DNA of 64,000 nucleotides from Gemmatimonadota bacterium (lineage in GTDB: Bacteria > Gemmatimonadota > Gemmatimonadetes > Gemmatimonadales > Gemmatimonadaceae): contig JAJPIS010000107.1 in assembly GCA_021324635.1 (NCBI GenBank), forward strand, positions 1 through 64,000, written 5' to 3'. Below the pieces are notes generated by a model. That model was not told the DNA's origin, searched no databases, and was given only the letters and a program-made list of their open reading frames with translations. Position numbers and translations under genes: made by a program. Each line of letters begins with the position of its first letter. Position 1 is the first letter of the stretch. Below are positions 38,965 through 58,461 of the stretch, piece by piece.

Positions 38965-39816
38965 ATGACCGAGCCCACGTCGCGAGGAATGCCCGGGAGG
39001 GTGACACTCGACATTGCTCCCGCATCCGCGGTCGGGACGGGCGGCGCGGGGCTCATCCCGGAGTGGCAGTTCAACGGCGTGCTGGGCTCCCCGGCCGCCG
39101 GCGGCACACGTCTCACCCACATCGAGTGCGGAGCCGAGCTCTGGGTACGCGAGGACCGGCTCGTGGCTGGGCGCGGCTACCGCGCGGCGTCACCCCGATC
39201 GCGTCGGGAGCTGGCCCGAGTCGGCGCGATCCTCCGACTTCGCGCTCGCCGGCGCTATCACCTGCACGCGGCGGGGGCAGTGGATGCGGCCGGCCGTGCG
39301 TGGCTGCTCGCCGGACCCACCGGGAGCGGGAAGTCGACCCTGGCCTATGCGCTCGCTCGGGCCGGATGGCGGATCCTCGGCGACGACGGGGTCATCGTCG
39401 AGCTCCCGACTGGCGGCGGCGCCCTGGCCCACCCGTGGCGAGAGCCGCTGCGCGTGTGCGCCACGCTGGCGCCGGCGTTTGCGGAGCTGAGGGCCATCGC
39501 CTGGGACCGGGTGGCGATCCCCGGTGACGCGCGGCGACGCGCGGAAGTACCCGCACCCGCGGCCTCGGTCGCGCCGATCGCCGGCATCGTCTGGCTCACT
39601 CAGGGCCCGCACGATCGCCTCTCCCCGATGCGCGGGGCCGACGCGTTGATCGAGCTCGTCCGCGGGTCAGCGTGGGTGTTGATCACGGACGACGCAAGCC
39701 GCCAGCACCTCGAGGCACTGAGGCGTCTCGCCACCGACGTTCCGAGCTTTCGCCTGGTTCATTCGCCCGCGCAACTGCACGCGATCGCCAGCACGATCGC
39801 GTCCATCCGACTGTGA
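38965..39816 (+). CDS. HPr kinase-related protein (HPr-rel-A system kinase)
   Basis: This P-loop kinase has 283 residues and is related to HPr kinase/phosphorylase. The HLHAAGAV strand precedes the Walker A motif GPTGSGKS (117-124), and LGDDGVIV (140-146) matches the kinase's acidic metal site. The first 90 residues form a separate domain (PEWQFNGVLGSPAAGGTRL). No HPr or PTS gene is near. The downstream nucleotidyltransferase and PqqD-like genes identify the cassette as the in-silico 'HPr-rel-A' type. Related kinases in lasso-peptide clusters phosphorylate a peptide, so a peptide substrate is possible here but not shown. Confidence 0.85.
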   Translation: MTEPTSRGMPGRVTLDIAPASAVGTGGAGLIPEWQFNGVLGSPAAGGTRLTHIECGAELWVREDRLVAGRGYRAASPRSRRELARVGAILRLRARRRYHLHAAGAVDAAGRAWLLAGPTGSGKSTLAYALARAGWRILGDDGVIVELPTGGGALAHPWREPLRVCATLAPAFAELRAIAWDRVAIPGDARRRAEVPAPAASVAPIAGIVWLTQGPHDRLSPMRGADALIELVRGSAWVLITDDASRQHLEALRRLATDVPSFRLVHSPAQLHAIASTIASIRL

Positions 39817-41015
39817 GGGCCGGCGTCTCGTCTCGCCCCTCGAGCGGCGGCGGTGCCAGCTTCACTCGATGGGCGAGGGAGGTCGGTGCGGCATGGGCCG
39901 TGTACGACACGGTCGCGAGCATCGTAGCGGGGGGTCCGATCGACGATCGCACCGCTCACGCCGCGATGAACGCCGTCCCGGCGACCTGGAGTCACGTGTT
40001 GGCGCTCGAAGGATGCGCAGCGTGGCTGGACCGCGAGCGACGCCGGCGACCCGAGCTCGAGGCCGTGACCGCTCCGGCAGCCGCACTCCTCCGCGAGGCG
40101 GCCGTCCGATCGCTGCGCAATGGGGTGGCGGCCGCCCAACAGCTCGGGGAGATACTGGCGATCGCGGCGGAGCTCGGCGTCCGCGTGCTCGCACTGAAGG
40201 GAATCGCCCGCCTGATCGCGGGGGAGCCTGCGGGCCTGAGAACGATGGCGGACATTGACCTGCTGGTCGACGGTCCGGCCGCCTCGGGACTGCACGAGCG
40301 GCTCCAGCTCGGCTTGGGGTACGAGGCCGATCCACGCGGAACGCCGGCGCGCCATCTGCCCTCCCTGGCGCGCGCCGGAAGCCTCCCGGTCGAGATCCAC
40401 CTGCGTGTCGGCGACCGTGCGCGCCCCCACGGTCTCGAGATGTGGGACGATGCTCGGCGCGCGAACATCGGGGGGTACGAGATCCACGTTCCGAGTCCGA
40501 CCATGCGGCTACTGCATACCATCGAGCACGCGATCCTCGTCCACCGCGCGGCACGATACAAGCTGCGGGACCTGCTCGACGTGGCGACCGCCGCCCCCGG
40601 GTCGGACGTGAACGCGGTGGCGCGGTACATCGAGAGCCACCGCAGCCATGCAGATCGGCGCGCGATTCGTACGCTTCTCGCGGCGGCGTCCGACCTGCCC
40701 TCGACGGATGGGTGTCCGACGCCTGCCCTCGCCCGACCGGACGGCGCGGTGCAGCGGCGTGCCTGGCGGCGCGTGCGGCGCGTGGCTCGGACTCGGCTCC
40801 TCGCGCCGGCCCGAGCGGACGTCATTCCAGAGTCCGATCCGCGCGTGCTGGTGCTGAGCCAGATTGCGCAGGGGTCCCCCGTGGTCGTCGGCGGGCTCAT
40901 CGCCCGTGCCGTCACCGCACCCATCCGCGCCGCGCGCCTCGTGACCGGGTCCTGGCTCCCGGCCGAAGCGAGGACTCCCGCGCGACCACCTGCCGATGGT
41001 GGGCTCGGCGAGTGA
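39813..41015 (+). CDS. Nucleotidyltransferase family protein (NTP_transf_5-like)
   Basis: The protein has 400 residues. The central nucleotidyltransferase motif is ALKGIARLIAGEPAGLRTMADIDLLV, with metal-binding Asp147 and Asp149. A long helical C-terminal half includes LLHTIEHAILVHRAARYKLRDLLDV, a pattern shared with PF14907-type proteins found in peptide-modification clusters. It starts at GTG 39813, overlapping the kinase stop (GTGA), so the two are translated together. It would transfer a nucleotide to an unknown protein, peptide or small molecule. Confidence 0.87.
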   Translation: MRAGVSSRPSSGGGASFTRWAREVGAAWAVYDTVASIVAGGPIDDRTAHAAMNAVPATWSHVLALEGCAAWLDRERRRRPELEAVTAPAAALLREAAVRSLRNGVAAAQQLGEILAIAAELGVRVLALKGIARLIAGEPAGLRTMADIDLLVDGPAASGLHERLQLGLGYEADPRGTPARHLPSLARAGSLPVEIHLRVGDRARPHGLEMWDDARRANIGGYEIHVPSPTMRLLHTIEHAILVHRAARYKLRDLLDVATAAPGSDVNAVARYIESHRSHADRRAIRTLLAAASDLPSTDGCPTPALARPDGAVQRRAWRRVRRVARTRLLAPARADVIPESDPRVLVLSQIAQGSPVVVGGLIARAVTAPIRAARLVTGSWLPAEARTPARPPADGGLGE

Positions 41016-41317
41016 CGCGGGTGACTGTGCGGCCGGACGCACTTTTTGCCGGCGTCGCGGACGGTGGCGTGGTCGTGCACACGACGACGAAACGCTACTA
41101 CTCCTTGAACGAGACCGGTGCACGCATCTGGTCACTTCTGGAAAGCGGTGCCGAGCTCGACGCCGCCGCCGCCGCCGTCGCATCCGAGTACGGGATCACG
41201 GCGGCCGAGGCCGCGGAGGCGGTGGGTCGTCTCGTCTCGGATCTGCTGGAGGCCGGGCTGGTCCAGCTCGCGGAGGTCCGGGACGAGGTGCGGGATGACG
41301 GCCCCGCGGCGCCGTGA
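41012..41317 (+). CDS. PqqD-like peptide chaperone (HPr-rel-A system)
   Basis: This small protein has 101 residues with a PqqD/RRE fold: VRPDALFAGVADGGVVVHTTTKRYYSLNETGARIWSLLESGAELDAAAAAVASEYGI..., followed by a winged-helix-like end (AVGRLVSDLLEAGLVQL). PqqD-type proteins bind the leader of a precursor peptide and present it to modifying enzymes. It starts at GTG 41012, overlapping the upstream stop (GTGA). No precursor peptide is seen in the 93-base gap downstream, nor any radical SAM, asparagine synthetase or transglutaminase-like protease nearby. Confidence 0.87.
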   Translation: MTRVTVRPDALFAGVADGGVVVHTTTKRYYSLNETGARIWSLLESGAELDAAAAAVASEYGITAAEAAEAVGRLVSDLLEAGLVQLAEVRDEVRDDGPAAP

Positions 41318-41409: not shown

Positions 41410-41907
41410 GTGAGTACAGAGTGCGATCGGATCGCTGACCAGTTGTACCGGGCCATCGAGGGGGACGCATGGCATGGCCACCCGGTGAGCTCGCTTCTGG
41501 CTGACGTGACCTCGGTGATGGCGGATGCCCGTCCGATCCCCGGCGCGCATACGATCTGGGAGCTGGTCCTGCACCTTACTGTCTGGGCGGACGTGGCACG
41601 ACGGCGGCTGGTGGGCGAGGTGCTCGAGCCGACGGACGCGGAGGATTGGCCGAGTCCGGCCGACGTGACGCCCGACGCATGGGCGGACGCGCGGGCGTCG
41701 CTGGAGCGAGCCCATGCCGACCTCCGGCGGGCGGCGCTTTCACTTGGCGACGGCCACCTCGAGGACCGCACGCCGGGAAAGCCGGACACCCTCTACGTGA
41801 TGCTCTGCGGGATCGTGCAGCACGCCGCCTACCACGGCGGTCAGATCGCCGTGCTCAAGCGCGCGCTGCCGATCCTCGCGAATCGGCCCGAGGTAGGTAG
41901 CCGGTAG
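41410..41907 (+). CDS. DinB-family protein
   Basis: This four-helix-bundle protein has 165 residues with the three-His metal pattern of DinB/YfiT proteins: one His near the start (HGHPVSSLL or AHTIWELVLHLTVWADV) and the pair in QHAAYHGGQIAVLKR. Members bind Ni or Zn and many act as thiol transferases (bacillithiol or mycothiol dependent). GTG 41410 is the start. It follows the HPr-rel-A trio with a 92-base gap, so it may not belong to it. Confidence 0.87.
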   Translation: MSTECDRIADQLYRAIEGDAWHGHPVSSLLADVTSVMADARPIPGAHTIWELVLHLTVWADVARRRLVGEVLEPTDAEDWPSPADVTPDAWADARASLERAHADLRRAALSLGDGHLEDRTPGKPDTLYVMLCGIVQHAAYHGGQIAVLKRALPILANRPEVGSR

Positions 41908-45400: not shown

Positions 45401-45404
45401 GGAC

Positions 45405-45443
45405 GGTGCAGGGGCAATTCGCGTCGCGAATTGCCCCTGCACC
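45405..45443. repeat. 39-base perfect palindrome
   Basis: GGTGCAGGGGCAATTCGCG is followed by a single T and then its exact reverse complement. The centre resembles the GGGGCAATTC...GAATTGCCCC intergenic palindromes that I recall from many environmental genomes. It lies in the 314-base gap (45291-45604) between the DUF4864 and AI-2E genes, where I see no gene. Confidence 0.85.
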
Positions 45444-45604
45444 GGGAACAGTAACGACGGGGATGATGCCACCTCCGTCGTACCCCGCGGACACGGGCGC
45501 ACCGGTGGGCCTGGCATCATGCCGCCCGCGACCCGCATCGCGCACGGACGCCTGATCCGCTGAGGACGCGCCCCCGCGTCCCGGCCGCACGACGGACGGC
45601 GCCG

Positions 45605-49225: not shown

Positions 49226-50218
49226 ATGTACGTCCACCCGTCGCTCGACCGCAGGCCTGAGACCTACGCCGACATGATGGCCCGCTATCTCGGCGACGAC
49301 GTCATGCGGGCGTTCGCGGACGACGATGTCAGCGAGATATACGTCAATCCGCAGGATGCCAGGGTCCGATTCGACACCAGGAGCCGCGGTCGGGTCGACT
49401 CCGGCCACCTGCTCGATCCGGCCCGCCTGGAGATGTTCCTCAACACGGCTGCGGCGAGCCTGGATCTCACGCTTGGGCCGACCGCTCCGCGACTCGAGGC
49501 CGAGCTGCCGGCGCGGCATTTCCGGGGCAGCCGCCTCCAGGGGTTCGTCCCCCCGGCGACGACGGCGCCGGCGTGTACGATGCGCAAGCCGCTGGCCGTT
49601 GTCCGATCGCTCGACGACTACGTGTCGGCGGGTGTGTTGACGCCGGTGCAGCGCGCCGCGCTCTGCGACGCGGTCGTCGCGCACCAGAACATTCTGATCG
49701 CCGGCGGCACGAACAGCGGCAAGACGACCCTGGCGAACGCGATCCTGCGCGAGATCACCTCACGGTTCCCCGAGGAGCGCATCGTCGTGCTCGAGGATAC
49801 GGTCGAGCTGCGCTGCGCGGCGCGCGACCATCTCGCCCTTCGGACCGGGCCGGGACTGACGTTGGCCGAGCTCGTTCGGTCGACGCTGCGGGCGAGTCCC
49901 AACCGCATTGTGGTCGGGGAGGTGCGTGGGCCTGAGGCGCTCGATCTGCTCGACGTCTGGGCGACCGGGCATCCCGGGGGGTGTGGGACCTGTCACGCGA
50001 CGACCGCCGAGGGCGCGCTGCTGCGGCTCGATCGGTTGGCGCAACGCAACAACGTGCCATCGCAGCGGGCGTTGATCGCCGAGGCGATTCACATCGTCGC
50101 GGTCATCGAGGGCGGACACCGCGGGCGGCGGTTGGCCGATCTGGCGCGGGTCGCCGGGCTGGACGCGCACGGGCGCATCGTCGTTCACCATCTCACATCC
50201 GAGGGGGTCTGGCAATGA
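49226..50218 (+). CDS. trbB: TrbB, VirB11-type secretion ATPase
   Basis: This hexameric traffic ATPase powers pilus assembly and substrate transfer in trb-type T4SS. The N-terminal domain (DDVSEIYVNPQDARVRFDTRSRGRV) leads to a RecA-like domain with Walker A GGTNSGKT (160-167), the Asp box VVLEDTVELRC, Walker B-like RIVVGEVRGPEALDLLDVW and the His box GHPGGCGTCHATTA. Length (330 residues) matches P-type TrbB. ATG 49226 is the first good start; the Shine-Dalgarno is weak. It is the first gene of the operon and overlaps trbC (ATGA). Confidence 0.95.
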   Translation: MYVHPSLDRRPETYADMMARYLGDDVMRAFADDDVSEIYVNPQDARVRFDTRSRGRVDSGHLLDPARLEMFLNTAAASLDLTLGPTAPRLEAELPARHFRGSRLQGFVPPATTAPACTMRKPLAVVRSLDDYVSAGVLTPVQRAALCDAVVAHQNILIAGGTNSGKTTLANAILREITSRFPEERIVVLEDTVELRCAARDHLALRTGPGLTLAELVRSTLRASPNRIVVGEVRGPEALDLLDVWATGHPGGCGTCHATTAEGALLRLDRLAQRNNVPSQRALIAEAIHIVAVIEGGHRGRRLADLARVAGLDAHGRIVVHHLTSEGVWQ

Positions 50219-50619
50219 CTCGACGTCGTCACCGTCGGGGAGGGCATCTCGCCGGCGACCGTTCATGCTCGCGACCCGGTGCCCGGGTGACCGTGACCCG
50301 TGCGCGACCCGGTCTTCGGCTGGCGGCGCTGCTGGCCGTGGGCGGCGTCCTCGCCTGTCCCGTGCTCGCGCACGCGAGTGCCGGTGCGGCCGCGACGATG
50401 CCATGGACGGGGCCGTTGCAGACGCTGCTCGACAACCTCTCGGGGCCCACGGCGCGGATCGTCGCCGGACTGGGGTTCGTGATCGGGGGCGGCATCTGGG
50501 CGTTCAGTCGGTCCGAGGAGGGCGCCAAGCGATTCGGCCAGATCGTGATCGGCGCTGCGATCGCCATCGGCGCGGCCAACATCGTGACCTCGCTGGCGTT
50601 CGTCGGCGCCGTGGTGTGA
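50215..50619 (+). CDS. trbC: TrbC, VirB2-like pilin
   Basis: TrbC is the major pilin. The protein has 134 residues: a basic, unusually long leader (TRRRHRRGGHLAGDRS...), a signal helix (LRLAALLAVGGVLACPVLAHASAGA) and, after cleavage, a mature part with two hydrophobic helices (PTARIVAGLGFVIGGGIWAF and GQIVIGAAIAIGAANIVTSLAFVGAVV) separated by SRSEEGAKRF, the cytoplasmic loop. The start overlaps the trbB stop (ATGA). In the classical system the pilin is cyclised with the help of the TraF peptidase, encoded at the end of this operon. Confidence 0.9.
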   Translation: MTRRRHRRGGHLAGDRSCSRPGARVTVTRARPGLRLAALLAVGGVLACPVLAHASAGAAATMPWTGPLQTLLDNLSGPTARIVAGLGFVIGGGIWAFSRSEEGAKRFGQIVIGAAIAIGAANIVTSLAFVGAVV

Positions 50620-50620
50620 C

Positions 50621-50938
50621 GTGCTCGAGCCGCATCCGATCCATCTCTCACTCTGCCGCCCGGTGCTCGTCGGCGGGGCGGAGCCCGCGGCCGTGGCGCT
50701 CGAGGTGCTCACCGCTGGTGGGCTGCTGTTCGGGGTGGGCTTCCACATCGCGACGATCGCGCTCTGGGCCTTCTACGTCACCGCGGTCCACGCGGTCATG
50801 GTCTGGGTGGCGACGCAGGATCCGCTCATGTCGCAGCTCTACCTGCGGAGCCGCGCGGCGCGCGACTACTACCCGGCCCACGGGGCGATCCTGGCCCCGC
50901 TTCTCCCCGTCCGGCCATCCATTCCGCGGCGCGGGTGA
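50621..50938 (+). CDS. trbD: TrbD, VirB3-like inner-membrane protein
   Basis: This short protein has 105 residues with two closely spaced membrane helices (VALEVLTAGGLLFGVGFHIATIALWAFYVTAVHAVMVWVATQDPL). A polar start HPIHLSLCRPVLVGGAEP has the conserved 'sLnRp' pattern of VirB3/TrbD, and the C-terminal YLRS.AARDYYPA also fits. It works with TrbE at the inner-membrane base. GTG 50621 is used; it lies one base after the trbC stop. Confidence 0.9.
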   Translation: MLEPHPIHLSLCRPVLVGGAEPAAVALEVLTAGGLLFGVGFHIATIALWAFYVTAVHAVMVWVATQDPLMSQLYLRSRAARDYYPAHGAILAPLLPVRPSIPRRG

Positions 50939-50941
50939 GCG

Positions 50942-53629
50942 ATGAGCACGGCGTATCTCGCCGGGGTGGTCGGGGCGGCTGGCGGTGCGGCGATTGCGGG
51001 CGCCGTGGGCCGGTGGAGGGAGCACCGCACCGAGCCGGCCGGGCTCGCGGATCTGCTGGCGTGGGGGTTCCTGGTCGGGCCGGGCGTGGTCCTGCAAAAG
51101 GACGGCAGTCTGCTCGCCGGGTTCCGGTATGCCGGGCCGGACGTCAGCTCGGCCATGCCGACGGAACTCGACGCACTGTCGCGCCACGTGAACGATGCCC
51201 TGTTGCCGTTCGCCGACGAGTGGATGTTTCACGTCGACGCCGTGCGGCGCCCGGCCGCGGCGTACGCGGCGGGCCGGTTCCCGGATCCGGTAACGCAACT
51301 GATCGATGAGGAGCGGCGCGCCGCGTACCGGGAAAGCGCTGGCCGGCAGTTCGAGACCGAGTACGTGCTCGCGGTGACGCACTTGCCGCCGCCCGAGGCT
51401 TTCTCCCGGCTGGCCGGGTGGTTCGTGCAGGGGGCCCAGCGGGCGAGCGTCGCCTGGGAGCCGGTGCTCGACACCTTCGAGACGGCGCTGCACGACCTCG
51501 AGCGTCGACTGGCGGGACGCCTTCGCCTGGAGCGCCTGGACAGCGACGGGCTCGTCACGCATCTGCACGAGTGCCTGACCGGCGTTGCACATCCGGTCCG
51601 GGCCCCTGCCGACGGGTCGTATCTCAATGTCGTGCTCGCCGACCAGGACCTCGTGGGCGGCTTCGAGCCACGGATTGGCGGGCGGCACATCCGCACCGTC
51701 GCGGTTCACGGCTATCCACACGCGTCGCACGCCGGCGCGCTCGATGTGCTCAATACCGTGCCGCACGCGTTCCGGTGGAGCAGTCGTGTGCTCCCGCTGG
51801 GCTTCCAGACCGCTGCCCGGCTGATCAGGCGGCAGCAGCTCACCTGGTACAAGAAGCGAAAGGGCATCGCGGCGTGGGTCCAGGAGCTCGGACGGGGCGG
51901 AGGGGGAGGGGGAGGGGGAGGGGGGGCGCGCGGGGGAGCTGACGGGGCGGACGCCGAGCTCTTTCTCGATCAGGATGCGCGACGGATGGCGAAGGACGCG
52001 GGCGATGCGGCAGCCGAGAATGCGTCGGGCGCCGTTCGCTTCTGCTTCTTCAATCAGGTGCTGGTCGTCACCGATCCCGATGCCGTGCGGGCGGGCGCCG
52101 TGGCCGGTGAGCTCCTCAAGGCGCTCCACGACGCCGGCTACACCGGTCGCATCGAGGGCGTGAACGCACTCGAGGCGTACCTGGGGAGCCTGCCCGGTCA
52201 CGGCTACCCCAATCTGCGCCGACCCCTCCTCAGCACGCGCAACGTCGCCGATCTGCTGCCCGTGACGAGCGTCTGGCCCGGCCTCGCTCGCAACCCGTCG
52301 CCGCTCTTTCCTCCCGGCAGCCCACCGCTCCTCTGGGCGGCGACCGCGGGGGCGACGCCCTTTCGAGTCAATCTTCACGACTCGGACGTCGGGCACGCGC
52401 TGATCCTCGGGAAGACGGGCGCGGGGAAGAGTACGCTGCTCGGGCTGCTTGCGGCCCAGTTCACCCGGTACCCCGGCGCGCAGGTCTTCGCCTTCGACGT
52501 TGGCTACTCGATGTGGATGCTCGCCCAGGCGGTCGGTGGCGCGCACTACGACCTGGCGGCGGGCCGCGCCGACGCGCTGCGCTTTCAACCGCTTGCCCGT
52601 GTGGACGACGCCGCCGAGCGCGCCTGGGCGGCCGACTGGCTCGAGTCGCTCGCTGCCCTCCAGGGCGTGTCCGTCACTCCGGCGCACCGGGCTCGTATCG
52701 ACCGCGCGCTCACGCTCCTCGCCGGGAACGCGCGGCCCCACCGGACGCTGACGGAGCTCATGGCGCAGTTACAGCAGCCGGAGCTCCTGAGTGCGGTGCG
52801 ACCGTACACGCTCGCCGGCCACTACGGGCAGCTCCTGGACGCCGCGACCGACGACCTCGGCGAGAGTCGGTTCACCGTCTTCGAGATGAAGCACCTGCTG
52901 GCCCTCGACGATCGGGTCGCGCTGCCCGTCCTGCTCTACCTGTTCCGCCGAGTCGAGCAGCGACTCGATGGGCGCCCGACACTCATCGAGATCGACGAGG
53001 CGTGGATGGCGCTCCTGCACGCGCGGTTCGGGGCGCGGATCACGCAGTGGCTGCTGACGCTCCGCAAGCACAACGCGGCTGTCGTGCTCGCGACACAGAG
53101 CCCCGCCCAGCTCGCGCAGCTCCCCACCCGCCACGCGGTCATCGACTCCTGCCCGACGCGGTTCTATCTGCCGAACGCCGACGCGGCCGCTCCGGCCGCC
53201 GCGGAGCTGTATCGCGATCTCGGACTCAACGCGCGGGAGATCGCGACCGTGGCCGGCGCGACGCCCAAGAGGCACTACTACATGAGCACGCCACGTGGGA
53301 GTCGCCTGTTCGAGCTCGGGCTCGGACCTCTGGCCCTCGCGGTTCTCACGCCCCCGCCCGGTCAGACCATCGAGGAGGCGAAACGCCAGGCCGAGGGGTT
53401 GATGGCGGCCCACGGCCCGGCGTGGTTGCCCGTGTGGCTCGAGCAGCGCGGGCTCGCCCAGTCGGCGGCCGTACTCCGGCGCAGCGCGTCGCGGCCGAAC
53501 CCGCGCGACCTGCCCGCCGACCTGTCGGCCGCATCCCCGTCCTTCCCCTCTGGAGACACATCCGATGCCAGCGCTCCCACTCCGACGTTCGACATCGTCC
53601 AGCAGCAGGCAGCCGGTGTCACCGGCTGA
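50942..53629 (+). CDS. trbE: TrbE, VirB4-type ATPase
   Basis: This large T4SS ATPase has 895 residues, a little longer than the usual 815-850. The N-terminal CagE/TrbE domain includes FRYAGPDVSS. The RecA-like domain has Walker A GKTGAGKS (490-497), then FAFDVGYSMWMLAQAVGG, Walker B LIEIDEAWMAL (near residue 680), and VVLATQSPAQLAQ. An uninterrupted run of 10 or 11 Gly (from GGRGGGG... at 51895-51937) sits between the two halves and is not a family feature. The gene begins four bases after the trbD stop. Confidence 0.95.
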   Translation: MSTAYLAGVVGAAGGAAIAGAVGRWREHRTEPAGLADLLAWGFLVGPGVVLQKDGSLLAGFRYAGPDVSSAMPTELDALSRHVNDALLPFADEWMFHVDAVRRPAAAYAAGRFPDPVTQLIDEERRAAYRESAGRQFETEYVLAVTHLPPPEAFSRLAGWFVQGAQRASVAWEPVLDTFETALHDLERRLAGRLRLERLDSDGLVTHLHECLTGVAHPVRAPADGSYLNVVLADQDLVGGFEPRIGGRHIRTVAVHGYPHASHAGALDVLNTVPHAFRWSSRVLPLGFQTAARLIRRQQLTWYKKRKGIAAWVQELGRGGGGGGGGGGARGGADGADAELFLDQDARRMAKDAGDAAAENASGAVRFCFFNQVLVVTDPDAVRAGAVAGELLKALHDAGYTGRIEGVNALEAYLGSLPGHGYPNLRRPLLSTRNVADLLPVTSVWPGLARNPSPLFPPGSPPLLWAATAGATPFRVNLHDSDVGHALILGKTGAGKSTLLGLLAAQFTRYPGAQVFAFDVGYSMWMLAQAVGGAHYDLAAGRADALRFQPLARVDDAAERAWAADWLESLAALQGVSVTPAHRARIDRALTLLAGNARPHRTLTELMAQLQQPELLSAVRPYTLAGHYGQLLDAATDDLGESRFTVFEMKHLLALDDRVALPVLLYLFRRVEQRLDGRPTLIEIDEAWMALLHARFGARITQWLLTLRKHNAAVVLATQSPAQLAQLPTRHAVIDSCPTRFYLPNADAAAPAAAELYRDLGLNAREIATVAGATPKRHYYMSTPRGSRLFELGLGPLALAVLTPPPGQTIEEAKRQAEGLMAAHGPAWLPVWLEQRGLAQSAAVLRRSASRPNPRDLPADLSAASPSFPSGDTSDASAPTPTFDIVQQQAAGVTG
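51895..51937 (+). repeat. GGA/GGG-rich low-complexity tract inside trbE
   Basis: Repeated GGGGGA units code for a poly-Gly linker in TrbE. The coding strand is almost pure G over 35 bases, which favours slippage and G-quadruplex formation. Confidence 0.9.
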
Positions 53630-54383
53630 GGGGAGTGCAGGGCGGTCGGTGGGGCGACACGGCGCGTTCCGCGCCGGGCGCGCCCGCGCGGACCTCCTCG
53701 CCGTCGCCGCCGCAGTGCTGGCGCTGCCCACATCCGCACGCGGCCAGTGGACCGTCTACGACCCGGCGAATTACGCCGAGAATGTCCTGCAATACAGCCA
53801 TCAGCTGATGCAGATCGACAACCAGGTACGGCAGCTCGCGTATCAGCTCCAGGCCCTCCGCAAGTTGCGGATCGTGCCCGGCCGGGACGTCCGGCCGGCG
53901 CTCGCCGGCATCGCCGGCGCGATGGCCGGCGCCAATTCCCTGGGTTACGCGTCGCCCGGTGCCGATCACGTCTTCCAGAACGTGTTCCCGGTGACCCGGC
54001 CGGTCGCGGACTGGCGCGCGGAGCAGCGTGCACGGGCGGTGGCCGCGGTTGGGGTGCTGCGCGCCGCGATGCTGGCGACGGCCCGGCAGCAGGCGTCGGT
54101 CGCCCCCGGCGCCCAGGCGATCGAGCAGATGAAGGCGATGAATAGGGCCGTGCAGGGCCACGAGCAGGCGCTCGAGCTTCAGAACACGGCGGCCGTGTAC
54201 GCGGCGGAAGAACTGATGCTGCTGCGCCAGGCCGCGATGGCGCAGACCAACGTCCAGGCCGTGTACTTCGCCCACCGGGTCAACGACGACGCTCAGCGCG
54301 ATGAGACCGTTCGGGCGCGGCTCGAGCAGTTGGCGATCCCGGCTGTCGCGCCGGCGGATGTGAGCCTCCGTGTCGGCCCGTGA
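53565..54383 (+). CDS. trbJ: TrbJ, secreted T4SS component
   Basis: TrbJ is a VirB5-like periplasmic or minor-pilus protein. The 272 residues comprise a leader with a signal helix (DLLAVAAAVLALPTSARGQ), then TVYDPANYAENVLQYSHQLMQIDNQVRQLAYQLQALRKL (the family's start), and long coiled-coil-like helices (AQAIEQMKAMNRAVQGHEQALELQNTAAVYAAEELMLLRQAAM). Start 53565 lies inside the trbE 3' end (65-base overlap); TGGAGA is about 10 bases upstream. Confidence 0.9.
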   Translation: MPALPLRRSTSSSSRQPVSPAEGSAGRSVGRHGAFRAGRARADLLAVAAAVLALPTSARGQWTVYDPANYAENVLQYSHQLMQIDNQVRQLAYQLQALRKLRIVPGRDVRPALAGIAGAMAGANSLGYASPGADHVFQNVFPVTRPVADWRAEQRARAVAAVGVLRAAMLATARQQASVAPGAQAIEQMKAMNRAVQGHEQALELQNTAAVYAAEELMLLRQAAMAQTNVQAVYFAHRVNDDAQRDETVRARLEQLAIPAVAPADVSLRVGP

Positions 54384-55327
54384 TCGAGCAGCGACATCGA
54401 CGCGTGGCCAGCGGCCTGGTGCTGGGGCTGGGAGTCGGGGCCGGGGCGTGCCTCGCCATCGTCCTCACGGCGCGCGTCGCTGGGGCGCAGGGGAGTGGTG
54501 GCGCGGCCGGCCCGTACCTGGATGGCATCCGCGAGGCGTATCGACTCGCCGCCGGCGGGTGGCGTGCCCGTCTCATCCCGATCGCGCAGCGCACCTTCAT
54601 GCTCCTGGCCGCCCTCGAGTTCTGTGTCTCCGGGCTCGTGTGGATGCTCAAGCGGGACTCACTGGACGATCTCGCAGCGAAGTTTCTGCTCAAGTTCACG
54701 CTCATCTCGTTCCTGCTGACACTCATCACGTCCGCCGACGTCTGGTTTCCGGCCATCCTCAACGGCTTCGCGTCGGCGGGGGAGCAGGTCATCGGGCGTG
54801 GGACGATGAGCCCCGACGCGATCATCGCGGTTGGTGGCAGCCTGGCGTACGGCATTCTGCGGAGCATCTCGCTGACGGTCCTCGCGCACGACGTGCTGAT
54901 GGGCGTCTTCGGGCTCCTGTGCGCGGTCAGTGTCGCCGGTGCCTACATCGCGATCGCCGTGCAGGTGTTGATGGTCATGATCGAGAGCTACGTGGTCGTT
55001 CTCGGTGGGGGCGTGCTCTTCCTCGGGTTCGCGGCCTCGCGGTGGACCGCGGCGATGGCCGAGCGCGTGATCACCTACGCTCTCTTCCTTGGCGCTCGCA
55101 TCTTCCTGCTCTACCTCCTGGTCGGCGTCGGCATGGACGTGACGCAGACTTTCATCCAGGTGATCGCGGGCAGCGACGTCTTCGCCGAGCCGAGTCCGTT
55201 GCTGCAAGTGACCGGGGGCGCCATCGCATTCGCGTTCCTCGTGTCGCGGGTACCGTACGACGTCGCCTGGAAGCTGACAGGGCACCAGAGTCTGGGCCTC
55301 GCCCAGGCCCTGCGGTCGCTGAGCTGA
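54380..55327 (+). CDS. trbL: TrbL, VirB6-like channel protein
   Basis: TrbL is a polytopic inner-membrane protein. The 315 residues include a signal-like first helix and at least six further membrane helices (FMLLAALEFCVSGLVWML, FLLKFTLISFLLTLITSADVW, LMGVFGLLCAVSVAGAYIAIAVQVLMVMIESYVVVLGGGVLFLGF, LFLGARIFLLYLLVGVGMDV), and the SRWTAAMAERVI and PYDVAWKLTG segments that mark P-type TrbL. GTG 54380 overlaps the trbJ stop (GTGA). TrbL is shorter than many homologues because the variable C-terminal tail is small. Confidence 0.93.
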   Translation: MIEQRHRRVASGLVLGLGVGAGACLAIVLTARVAGAQGSGGAAGPYLDGIREAYRLAAGGWRARLIPIAQRTFMLLAALEFCVSGLVWMLKRDSLDDLAAKFLLKFTLISFLLTLITSADVWFPAILNGFASAGEQVIGRGTMSPDAIIAVGGSLAYGILRSISLTVLAHDVLMGVFGLLCAVSVAGAYIAIAVQVLMVMIESYVVVLGGGVLFLGFAASRWTAAMAERVITYALFLGARIFLLYLLVGVGMDVTQTFIQVIAGSDVFAEPSPLLQVTGGAIAFAFLVSRVPYDVAWKLTGHQSLGLAQALRSLS

Positions 55328-55334
55328 CGCGCCG

Positions 55335-56027
55335 ATGACCGCCCCGACCGATCCTCGGTTCATCCGCGCCAGGCACGAGTTCGCGAACGCCTTCGGCGAC
55401 CTCGCCCGCGGGAAGCGCAACTGGCAACTCGCGACCTTCTGGACGCTGGGCGTCCTGAGCGTCGTCGTGCTGGCGTATGTGCGGCTCGCCGGCTCGGCCC
55501 GCATCGTCCCCTATATCGTCGAAGTGGACCGCCTGGGGCAGGTGATCCCGGCCGGCGTGGCCGACGTGATGAAGCCGCCTGACGCGCGCCTCGTCGCCTC
55601 CCAGCTCGCCGCGTTCGTGCGGGCGGTCAGGACCGTGCTCCCCGCGTCGCCCCCCGCGCTCGAGGCCGACGTGATGCGGCGGGCGTACGCCTTCGTCGAT
55701 CAGGGGTCGACGGCAGCCACGACCCTCAACACCTACTTCGCCGACCCGGCACACGATCCGCGCGTGCTGGGGCGGGTGCTGACCCGCCAGGTCGACGTCA
55801 CGAGCGTCCTGCCCGTGCCGGGTGCGTCGACCTGGAAGCTGCGGTGGGCCGAGACGGAGCTACCGATACAACCGGGGATGCCGACCCGGATGACGGCGTG
55901 GGAGGGGTACGTCACCGTGCGCACGCGAGCGCCGGCGACGGCCGACGCCGTCCAGGACAACCCGCTGGGCGTCTTCATCACATCGATCGATTGGGCCGAA
56001 ATCACGGTCACCGGGGGAAGACCATGA
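55335..56027 (+). CDS. trbF: TrbF, VirB8-like protein
   Basis: TrbF has an N-terminal cytoplasmic stretch, one membrane helix (WQLATFWTLGVLSVVVLAYVRLAG) and a periplasmic NTF2-like domain (RIVPYIVEVDRLGQVIPAG...WKLRWAETELPIQPGMPTRMTAWEGYVTVRTR). It nucleates the inner-membrane assembly of the channel. ATG start seven bases after trbL; its stop overlaps trbG (ATGA). Confidence 0.93.
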   Translation: MTAPTDPRFIRARHEFANAFGDLARGKRNWQLATFWTLGVLSVVVLAYVRLAGSARIVPYIVEVDRLGQVIPAGVADVMKPPDARLVASQLAAFVRAVRTVLPASPPALEADVMRRAYAFVDQGSTAATTLNTYFADPAHDPRVLGRVLTRQVDVTSVLPVPGASTWKLRWAETELPIQPGMPTRMTAWEGYVTVRTRAPATADAVQDNPLGVFITSIDWAEITVTGGRP

Positions 56028-57139
56028 GCACGTGGAGAGGGGCGGCGGGCGGCCGTCGGGCCGGCGTGGCGTCACGTCGTCGGTCCGTGATGTTCTGCAC
56101 AGGGGCGCTGACGGCGTGCATCGTCGGCGGACTGAGTCGTCCCGCCGGGGCGCAGGCGCCGGACAGCGCGGGGCTACCCGGCGCGACCGGCGCGTCGGGC
56201 GCGGGCAGACCGGCGGCCGATACCGCGCGCGTCGAGAGTGGTCGCGTCGACACCGGCCGGATGGATCCCGTGACGGCCGCCACGCACGAGTACCGGCGCA
56301 CCGGCGTCGCCCGCGTGGTCGAGGAGGGCACCGCCGTCACCTACCCGTTCGGGCATTCGCAACCGACCGTCACCTGCGCGCCGCTGCGGGCGTGCGTGGT
56401 CGAGCTTCAGGCGGGCGAGTCGGTCGTGAGCGAGATAGCCGGCGATACTCAGCGCTGGGAGATCCAGCTCGCATCGGCAGGCGTCGACGGACGCACGTCG
56501 CTCGTCGTCGTCAAGCCGCACGACTGCGCGCTCACCACCAACCTCGTGCTGGCGACCACCAGCGGCCGGATCTACGACCTGACGCTCGACAGCCCGCCGT
56601 GCGAGCGAGGCACCCTCAACCCGCGGGGGATCTACACCCGTCGGGTGCGCTTCTACTATCCCGACGCGATGGTCCAGGCGTGGGCGCCGCCGCCCGCGGC
56701 CGCCCATCCCGACACGATGAGAGGCAACGGCCAGGCGCCAGGCCGTGGCACCGGACCGGTCTCCGGGATCGACGCTCTCAACTTCGCCTACCGGCTCCGC
56801 GCCGACCACCGGTTCCCGTGGCGACCCGTCGCTGTGTTCGATGACGGGGCGCACTGCTACATCAAGCTGCCGCCGCACGCCAGGCATCGGGACGTGCCCG
56901 TGCTGTTCGCCGTGGGAGAGGACGGGACGCGGACTCTCCTCAATTACAGCATCGTCCACGACACCTACGTCACCGATCGCGTGGTGCGGGGCGCGCAGTT
57001 GGTGCTCACCGACGGCGACGAGGAGCGAGTGCTCCGGATCGAGAACCTCGACTACGACGCACCGCCGGACGATGGGTCGCGCGCGTCGCACGCCGACATC
57101 GCGGGACCGGCGGCGGTCCGCGGCGGAGCTCGGCCGTGA
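56024..57139 (+). CDS. trbG: TrbG, VirB9-like outer-membrane core protein
   Basis: TrbG joins TrbI and a lipoprotein (TrbH) in the outer-membrane core. The 371 residues include a signal region (VMFCTGALTACIVGGLSRPAGAQA), a disordered Ala/Gly/Ser-rich stretch, then the VirB9 domain: AVTYPFGHSQPTVTCAPLRACVVELQAGESV and the late DALNFAYRLRADHRFPWRPVAVFDDGAHCYIKLP and DTYVTDRVVRGAQLVLTDGDEERVLRIENLDYD. ATG 56024 overlaps the trbF stop. No TrbH lipoprotein gene is seen. Confidence 0.93.
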   Translation: MSTWRGAAGGRRAGVASRRRSVMFCTGALTACIVGGLSRPAGAQAPDSAGLPGATGASGAGRPAADTARVESGRVDTGRMDPVTAATHEYRRTGVARVVEEGTAVTYPFGHSQPTVTCAPLRACVVELQAGESVVSEIAGDTQRWEIQLASAGVDGRTSLVVVKPHDCALTTNLVLATTSGRIYDLTLDSPPCERGTLNPRGIYTRRVRFYYPDAMVQAWAPPPAAAHPDTMRGNGQAPGRGTGPVSGIDALNFAYRLRADHRFPWRPVAVFDDGAHCYIKLPPHARHRDVPVLFAVGEDGTRTLLNYSIVHDTYVTDRVVRGAQLVLTDGDEERVLRIENLDYDAPPDDGSRASHADIAGPAAVRGGARP

Positions 57140-58461
57140 GCGACGACGGCCAGCGCTCGGCGCGGGAGCCGGCGGATCCCCTCCCGCTCCCGCCGACCGC
57201 GCCCCTGCGGCCGCCTCCGCCGCTCGCCAAGCGACTCAACCGCAACGCCCTCACCGTCGCGGCCGCGCTCGCGGCAGTCACCGTCCTCACGGTTCTCATC
57301 GTCACGCGGCCATCGCGCGACCCCGGGATGCAGCGTCAATCGCCGGGGGCGGCGGCGACCGCGCCCATGCCGGCACGACCCGCATTCCTCGACCAGCCGC
57401 CGCGCGCCGAGAGCACCGCCGTACTGTCGGGCGCGAGAGCGGCGGTCCGCGAGTCGGTGCCGGCGCCCGATACGAGCGGATTGCCGATCCCGTCGCCCAT
57501 CGGTGCGAGCGATCCACCGGTTCCTGTCGGACCTCCGGGCGGACGCGAGGACGGCACAGAGACCTCGGGCGGCGGAGGGTCGGGGAGCGGCCGGCTGTCC
57601 CGCTCGGAAGCCTATCAGGCTGCGCTGACGAGCGCCGTGCTCGTCACCGGGGGGGCGGGCGGTTCGACCCGTGCTGCGCCTGTGGCCGTACGCCCCCGCT
57701 CGGTTGTGCGGGACGCGGCCGTCGATACCGTGGGCTGGTCGCCGCGGGTGCAGGAGAGCGGAGCGGAGACCGGTGCGCCGAGTGCACCGGTGGCTCCCGC
57801 CGTCACCGGGGCGGCGCCGTCCAGTGCGCGGATCGAGCCTGCCGGCTCACCGTATACCGTGCGGGCCGGGACGGTGATTCCCGGCACACTGATCACCGGC
57901 GTCAACTCCGACCTGCCGGGGGAAGTGCTCGCCCAGACGAGCCGCGATGTATTCGACTCCCGGACCCAGCAAGTGCTCCTCATCCCGAGAGCGTCGCGGC
58001 TCATCGGACAGTACGACAGTCGCTCGGTCGGCACGGGCCGCCTCATCGTGACGTGGACACGCCTCGTGCTCCCGGACGGCCGCGGGCTGGCGCTCCCGCG
58101 GCTGGCCGGCACCGACGAGACGGGGGAGGCGGGGCTTCACGATCGCGTCGATCACCACTTTGGGCGCGTGTATGGCGCGGCGTTGCTCACGTCGGCCATC
58201 ACGGCAGGCGTCCAGCTCGCACAGCCGCAGCAATCGGGCCTGTACGCGGCGCCGTCGTCCCGCCAGGTGGCGGCGGGGGCGCTCGGTCAGACCGTCGGAG
58301 ACCTGTCGCTGGAGAGCGCGCGACGCGGGCTCGATGTCCCGCCGACGGTCATCATTCGGCCGGGGTATCCGTTCGACGTGTTCCTGACGGGCGATCTCGC
58401 GTTCGACGGCCCGTATGTCGAGACGTCGCCCACACCGGCCGGGTCGGTCACTCGTCCATGA
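57136..58461 (+). CDS. trbI: TrbI, VirB10-like core protein
   Basis: TrbI spans the envelope. A Pro-rich cytoplasmic start (PADPLPLPPTAPLRPPPPLAKRLNRNA), one membrane helix (ALTVAAALAAVTVLTVLIV, about residues 35-53) and a long disordered periplasmic part (Ala, Pro, Ser, Gly to about 225) lead to the TrbI domain from residue 235 (SPYTVRAGTVIPGTLITGVNSDLPGEVLAQTSRDVFDSRTQQVLLIPRASRLIGQYDS...GLALPRLAGTDETGEAGLHDRVDHHFGRVYGAALL). GTG 57136 overlaps the trbG stop (GTGA). The GLHDRVDHH signature is well conserved. Confidence 0.95.
   Translation: MSDDGQRSAREPADPLPLPPTAPLRPPPPLAKRLNRNALTVAAALAAVTVLTVLIVTRPSRDPGMQRQSPGAAATAPMPARPAFLDQPPRAESTAVLSGARAAVRESVPAPDTSGLPIPSPIGASDPPVPVGPPGGREDGTETSGGGGSGSGRLSRSEAYQAALTSAVLVTGGAGGSTRAAPVAVRPRSVVRDAAVDTVGWSPRVQESGAETGAPSAPVAPAVTGAAPSSARIEPAGSPYTVRAGTVIPGTLITGVNSDLPGEVLAQTSRDVFDSRTQQVLLIPRASRLIGQYDSRSVGTGRLIVTWTRLVLPDGRGLALPRLAGTDETGEAGLHDRVDHHFGRVYGAALLTSAITAGVQLAQPQQSGLYAAPSSRQVAAGALGQTVGDLSLESARRGLDVPPTVIIRPGYPFDVFLTGDLAFDGPYVETSPTPAGSVTRP

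Follow-up and report, generated by a model that had tools for sequence, protein, structure and literature searches.

The window analyzed here, a stretch of 64,000 nucleotides from a Gemmatimonadota contig, carries a cassette of three genes on the forward strand. The first gene (38965..39816, +) encodes a putative HprK-like peptide kinase of 283 aa, the second (39813..41015, +) an NTP_transf_5 nucleotidyltransferase (NTase) of 400 aa with a GTG start, and the third (41012..41317, +) a discrete RRE, a PqqD-like protein of 101 aa that also has a GTG start. The open reading frames confirm this arrangement at 38965-41317, which an earlier note on this DNA had described together with the GTGA overlap at both junctions. 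The NTase/RRE overlap is kept in 3/3 genomes of the genus; the kinase/NTase overlap is not. Among these three genomes the dN/dS is 0.14-0.36 for the three genes, and we therefore consider the cassette genes to be real and under purifying selection. The downstream DinB-like gene (41410..41907, +; dN/dS 0.11-0.15) adjoins the cassette in loci L044 and L045; it is conserved in the genus and is not considered part of the pathway. Draft assemblies and an in-house gene caller underlie the gene calls across all loci.

The NTase (Pfam PF14907, 79.6 bits) and the RRE (Pfam PqqD, 62.7 bits) both pass the Pfam cut-offs; the kinase alone scores 16.7 bits against Hpr_kinase_C, under the cut-off of 33.3. 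A profile of 22 kinase relatives finds the HprK/P structures 1jb1 (E 8e-8) and 1ko7 (E 3e-7) as its best PDB matches, and the alignment runs through the Walker A motif, verified at 117-124 (G117-S124), and the Asp pair. Residues H101, K123 and D141 are present in 22/22 relatives and D140 in 20/22. The same His-Lys-Asp-Asp set is catalytic in lasso-tailoring kinases (PMC9266682), and the window kinase carries it as H101-K123-D140-D141, the mark of a peptide-tailoring HprK-like kinase. In the NTase, the D147/D149 pair noted earlier is confirmed, and K129, D147, D149, E194 and H196 are invariant (12/12 sequences). The core of its AlphaFold model, at a pLDDT of 51, matches 5uvd (E 3e-4), ANT(2'')-Ia (E 0.004) and, at only E 0.35, FKRP, which hints at a resemblance to nucleotidyltransferases. 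The kinase model (pLDDT 31.9, three aligned sequences) was unusable and was set aside. No plasmid relatives of the kinase were found.

The surroundings of the cassette agree with the earlier description: we found no asparagine synthetase or leader protease in the window around it, and no exporter was identified beside it in the gene calls. No radical SAM gene was seen adjoining the cassette in the genus, and no lasso cyclase homologue occurs in the 24 cassette loci including the window. An HPr or PTS partner, named earlier as the companion that would speak against a peptide-directed system, was not found by an HPr motif scan of the window and cassette relatives (0/24 loci). Elsewhere in the window, an inverted repeat at positions 45404-45444 has two perfectly matching arms of 20 nt, 1 nt apart. 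A row of trb-type conjugation genes occupies 49226-58461 and represents an integrated conjugative element, either whole or as a remnant; its TrbE-like protein shares about 42% identity with plasmid TrbE.

Kinase relatives were gathered from 395 genomes of the phylum and their surroundings were read with the in-house gene caller. In the same family, the usual gene order is lipoprotein, short ORF, kinase, RRE and TolB-like propeller; a radical SAM gene is sometimes present, and some loci also encode a B2-type peptidase and the NTase. The more distant loci have the order precursor, kinase, RRE, B2 peptidase and NTase, and Phe replaces Trp in the leader; the B2 assignment passes the NCBIfam threshold (66.6 vs 33). 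This enzyme set, lacking a cyclase, also occurs on Nitrospiraceae and Verrucomicrobia contigs, with leader-bearing ORFs in Nitrospiraceae only. The short ORFs share the leader consensus W1-x-x-P4-x-L6-x-x-H9-x-x-[L/M]12-x-x-L15-T16-Q17, where W and P are each conserved in 20/20 peptides, L6 and H9 in 19/20 and T16 in 17/20; this count includes the L098 peptide, taken from a readable frame whose start is not defined. Most cores contain a hydrophobic stretch and two Cys, and [IVT][ST]C is present in 11/20.

Four tandem precursor-like ORFs of 29-30 aa (MRKTF[TV]AP[RK]L..EATL..LTL...) lie upstream of a distant kinase in L041 (497-1040, G012:C8). The tail of a precursor-like ORF in L059 (1858-2058) is rich in His and Gly (GHGHGHELGHGHGH), which points to a metal-binding core. 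In L132 (9576-9854), two near-identical 28-aa ORFs, MKRTPWITPTLVSKPVSETLFVQD..., lie beside a kinase/RRE/cyclase/NTase cluster. The NTase frame of L048 (6919-8778) continues into the TolB-like propeller, which is a separate locus protein elsewhere; this is either a fusion or an assembly error. A second split system was observed in G048, with the RRE, B2 and NTase on L137 (G048:C165) and the kinase, precursor, radical SAM and propeller genes on L049 (G048:C136).

A search of the window around the cassette revealed no precursor gene, and short ORFs of the window with a lasso-like leader were not convincing as precursors. A profile search of the window's own genome, with a profile built without this genome's peptide, yielded a sole match at E<=10 (C44:163677-163805, minus strand, E 0.0015). 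It falls within an ORF of 59 aa at C44:163659-163838 (-), MSARAAVIVPALPRPWLPPTLTEHGPLTAMVRVSNGAVPMVAALLQIGVSCQINPQACG, which we propose as the candidate precursor; the ORF is outside the window on the same contig, about 122 kb from the cassette. A second profile identified its orthologues in both genus-mates (E 1e-13 and 5e-12). The peptide loci are syntenic in the three genus genomes, and the peptide dN/dS of 0.14-0.29 among them indicates purifying selection. The peptide is carried by 12/12 genomes with a close kinase and was detected at E<1e-6 in 18/179 family genomes. Six of these 18 are held-out genomes, whose matches played no part in building the profile and which were found by the peptide alone: the kinase is adjacent in 4/6, and in the other 2/6 the match lies next to a lipoprotein or radical SAM gene of the system, with a contig end nearby. 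The expectation that a short ORF is conserved within 5 kb of the cassette holds for the relatives and fails for the window's genus. The broader idea of peptide-directed modification is supported, in that the relatives have a precursor beside the kinase and RRE and the window's genome has a cognate precursor in trans. The window has also lost the upstream lipoprotein beside the kinase, which the genus-mates keep there. This lipoprotein and the TolB-like propeller were considered as parts of the mechanism and not retained; weak homologues are present in the window's genome at C44:123674-126494.

The cassette RRE has the lasso RRE TbiB1 as its best PDB match (E 9e-7), and by this match and Pfam PqqD it is a discrete RRE of the lasso type, although it scores below the lasso-specific NCBIfam cut-offs (54.3/70). 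For the linear polyphosphorylated peptides (LPP) of Bacillota, a family of 2026, crystal and mutational work identified D70 of LppB as the residue that binds the leader Tyr, and the choice of RRE was shown to depend on Trp or Tyr in the leader (PMC13381572); in Bacillota the LPP leader has Tyr and the paeninodin leader Trp. In an alignment to LppB/PbaB1, the D70 position is occupied by Asp in 6/6 RREs with a Tyr leader and in 0/13 RREs with a Trp leader, which have Ala or Glu. In the window's genome, the cassette RRE has Ala and the lasso RRE has Asp at this position. The lasso leader of this genome has YETP, and those of the genus-mates YTTP and YATP. The key is thus swapped relative to Bacillota: here the lasso leader has Tyr and the linear one Trp. 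The cassette RRE is predicted to read a W-x-x-P-x-L leader. The Trp-leader RREs belong mostly to one clade, and the number of independent events behind the partition is therefore small; the L132 lasso RRE, which has a Trp leader, likewise has no Asp at this site. An RRE tree places the cassette RREs apart from the lasso RREs of the same genomes (82/87 support); the tree is poorly resolved, with long branches for the LppB/PbaB1 fragments, and was used for that grouping alone.

Other RRE pathways are present in these genomes. The complete canonical lasso cluster on contig C4 (L009, 7863-11091) comprises a precursor starting with MKRPYETPAV..., a cyclase, B2 and an RRE, and a weak PqqD-like protein is encoded nearby. 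A third RRE pathway of the genome is PQQ biosynthesis, whose genes on contig C29 (L008, 11657-14820) include a PqqD of their own and are truncated where the contig ends. Paeninodin-like lasso clusters with kinase, NTase and ABC exporter genes and the leader MYQKP[KR]VERFG[TS]FRELTQ were observed in the same family (L130, L134 and L136).

The B2 peptidases divide in a tree into cyclase-linked proteins and a cyclase-free clade that contains the B2s of the LPP-like loci. Of the 15 family genomes with T16 in the peptide, 11 have a cyclase-free B2; one of these B2s was assigned by best match only, its sequence being too short for the tree. Completeness is 68-88% in the remaining four genomes. In 3/3 members of the window's genus no cyclase-free B2 is present, only the lasso B2 being found, and exactly these three have Val or Ala at leader position 16. 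Since T16 and B2 were lost jointly in one lineage, we count this as one event. No match to the SipW-like peptidase (TIGR02228) was detected in the window's genome, and no MsbA-like exporter was seen in the gene calls beside the cassette. The loss of the cleavage site together with its enzyme suggests that in this genus the leader is either retained or removed by another enzyme. We tentatively raise the possibility, at well under even odds, of a RiPP system without leader removal, whose full-length phosphopeptide may act intracellularly or at the membrane and not be secreted, with the Trp/Tyr key reversed relative to Bacillota. The basis for a leader-retaining product is the precursor at a second conserved locus, Val/Ala in place of Thr and the missing dedicated leader peptidase.

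The reading that we favor, with a probability of roughly three in four, is a cyclase-free RiPP pathway split between two loci, in which the cassette supplies the modifying half and the 59-aa peptide is the substrate. It draws on features read from sequence, namely the parts, their catalytic residues, the precursor family, co-occurrence, synteny, selection and the leader/RRE key match. The binding, phosphorylation, its site and the NTase chemistry, as well as export and biological role, are what we infer beyond them. The RRE (41012-41317) would bind the leader W16-L-P-P19-T-L21-T-E-H24 of the peptide and the bound core would be presented to the HprK-like kinase. The kinase would then phosphorylate a core Ser/Thr, with S50, before the conserved Cys, as the best candidate and S34 as the second. 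The NTP_transf_5 enzyme could subsequently attach a nucleotidyl moiety or a sugar, the phosphate being the probable site. This order is proposed because of the His-Lys-Asp-Asp set and two precedents: LppK adds 1-4 phosphates to core Ser (PMC13381572), and the NTase of the pseudomycoidin lasso pathway is required for one or two hexoses on phospho-Ser (PMC9266682). By analogy, the kinase probably phosphorylates the peptide. The statement of the earlier note that no experimental function was known is outdated for a close analogue, because experiments on LppK demonstrated phosphorylation of a core serine (PMC13381572). Counting against our reading, the precursor is not adjacent in the genus, no dedicated leader peptidase or exporter was identified there, leader Thr16 is Val/Ala, the Trp/D70 partition lies largely within one clade and not every peptide has a Ser at the candidate phosphosite ([IVT][ST]C, 11/20).

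The cassette could instead be a decaying remnant of an LPP-like or lasso-like cluster, which lost its peptidase, exporter and adjacent precursor and whose remaining genes are functionless. The absence of a peptidase and exporter, the scattered parts, the loss of leader Thr16 and the loss of the lipoprotein kept beside the kinase by genus-mates would all fit, but the dN/dS of 0.14-0.36 for the three genes and the peptide, the intact catalytic residues and a peptide locus syntenic across three species make decay quite unlikely. Tailoring of the C4 lasso product in trans, as in paeninodin-like clusters, would give work to known lasso-tailoring enzymes (PMC9266682) in a genome whose one complete lasso cluster has no kinase or NTase of its own. 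However, the lasso pathway uses a YETP leader and an RRE with the Tyr-binding Asp, whereas the cassette has its own RRE without this Asp; the lasso cores of the genus end in GSVGFAL, GSVGFQL or GNVGFQL with no conserved C-terminal Ser; and the kinase of the relatives adjoins its own W-leader peptide and not lasso genes. We regard this alternative as very unlikely.

Slightly less probable still is regulation unrelated to RiPPs, in which the kinase and NTase modify a protein or small molecule and PqqD is merely an adaptor or scaffold. HprK folds do phosphorylate proteins, and the low-confidence NTase model resembles aminoglycoside nucleotidyltransferases. The tight co-occurrence of the cassette with a leader-bearing peptide family, the lack of HPr in 24 loci and the B2 leader peptidase in distant cassettes argue against it.

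With the 59-aa peptide, an orphan kinase/NTase/RRE cassette gains a concrete, testable candidate substrate, and the chemistry of NTP_transf_5 proteins becomes testable on a defined peptide. Because the peptide gene is about 122 kb away, genome mining for adjacent precursors would miss it. The co-variation of the leader aromatic and RRE residue 70 offers an apparently separate test of how RRE cross-talk is avoided in one cell.

Among known systems, HPr-rel-A (TIGR04352/TIGR04353) likewise has an adjacent kinase and PqqD-like protein, but the membership proposed in the earlier note does not stand, both proteins falling under the curated cut-offs (kinase 43.4 bits vs 200; PqqD 29.5 vs 35). The name was absent from the literature searched; the RRE-Finder paper and the 2025 RRE definition paper make no mention of kinases, HPr or Gemmatimonadota. 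The SynChlorMet cassette also pairs a kinase-like protein with a PqqD-like partner, but the scores are low (ScmC 29.2 bits vs 125; ScmD 13.7 vs 100). Paeninodin-like and pseudomycoidin lasso pathways (PadeK/PsmK, PsmN) share the His-Lys-Asp-Asp kinase, an NTP_transf-type protein, a discrete RRE and a WxxP leader. In contrast to them, the cassette is not accompanied by an asparagine-synthetase-type cyclase, that of the genome lying in the separate C4 cluster, and its precursor has no C-terminal Ser.

The nearest characterized relative is the LPP family, described by its defining paper as restricted to Bacillota (PMC13381572). The lpp cluster of P. alginolyticus (PMC13381572) and the cassette share an HprK-like kinase, a discrete RRE and an NTP transferase at a locus without a macrolactam (lasso) cyclase, and in both cases a lasso cluster coexists in the same genome. 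The leaders match in register at aromatic-1, P4, hydrophobic-6, H9, hydrophobic-12 and T16, the last in the relatives; compared with the LPP leader YxxPxVLxHQxIxFET, the cassette peptide keeps the register and His9, with Trp for Tyr and Val/Ala for T16 in the genus. LPP clusters have a SipW-like (SpI) peptidase and an MsbA-like exporter, neither of which was found with the cassette, and a B2-type peptidase replaces the former in cassette relatives only. The cassette further differs in its precursor in trans, its occurrence outside Bacillota, a conserved core containing Cys and an RRE without LppB D70. Because no SpI peptidase was found and the leader differs, we do not assign the cassette to LPP. 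Judged by its genes and peptide sequences, it is a variant of cyclase-free, RRE-guided phosphopeptide RiPPs, LPP-like and outside Bacillota, and would extend LPP-like linear phosphopeptides beyond that phylum.
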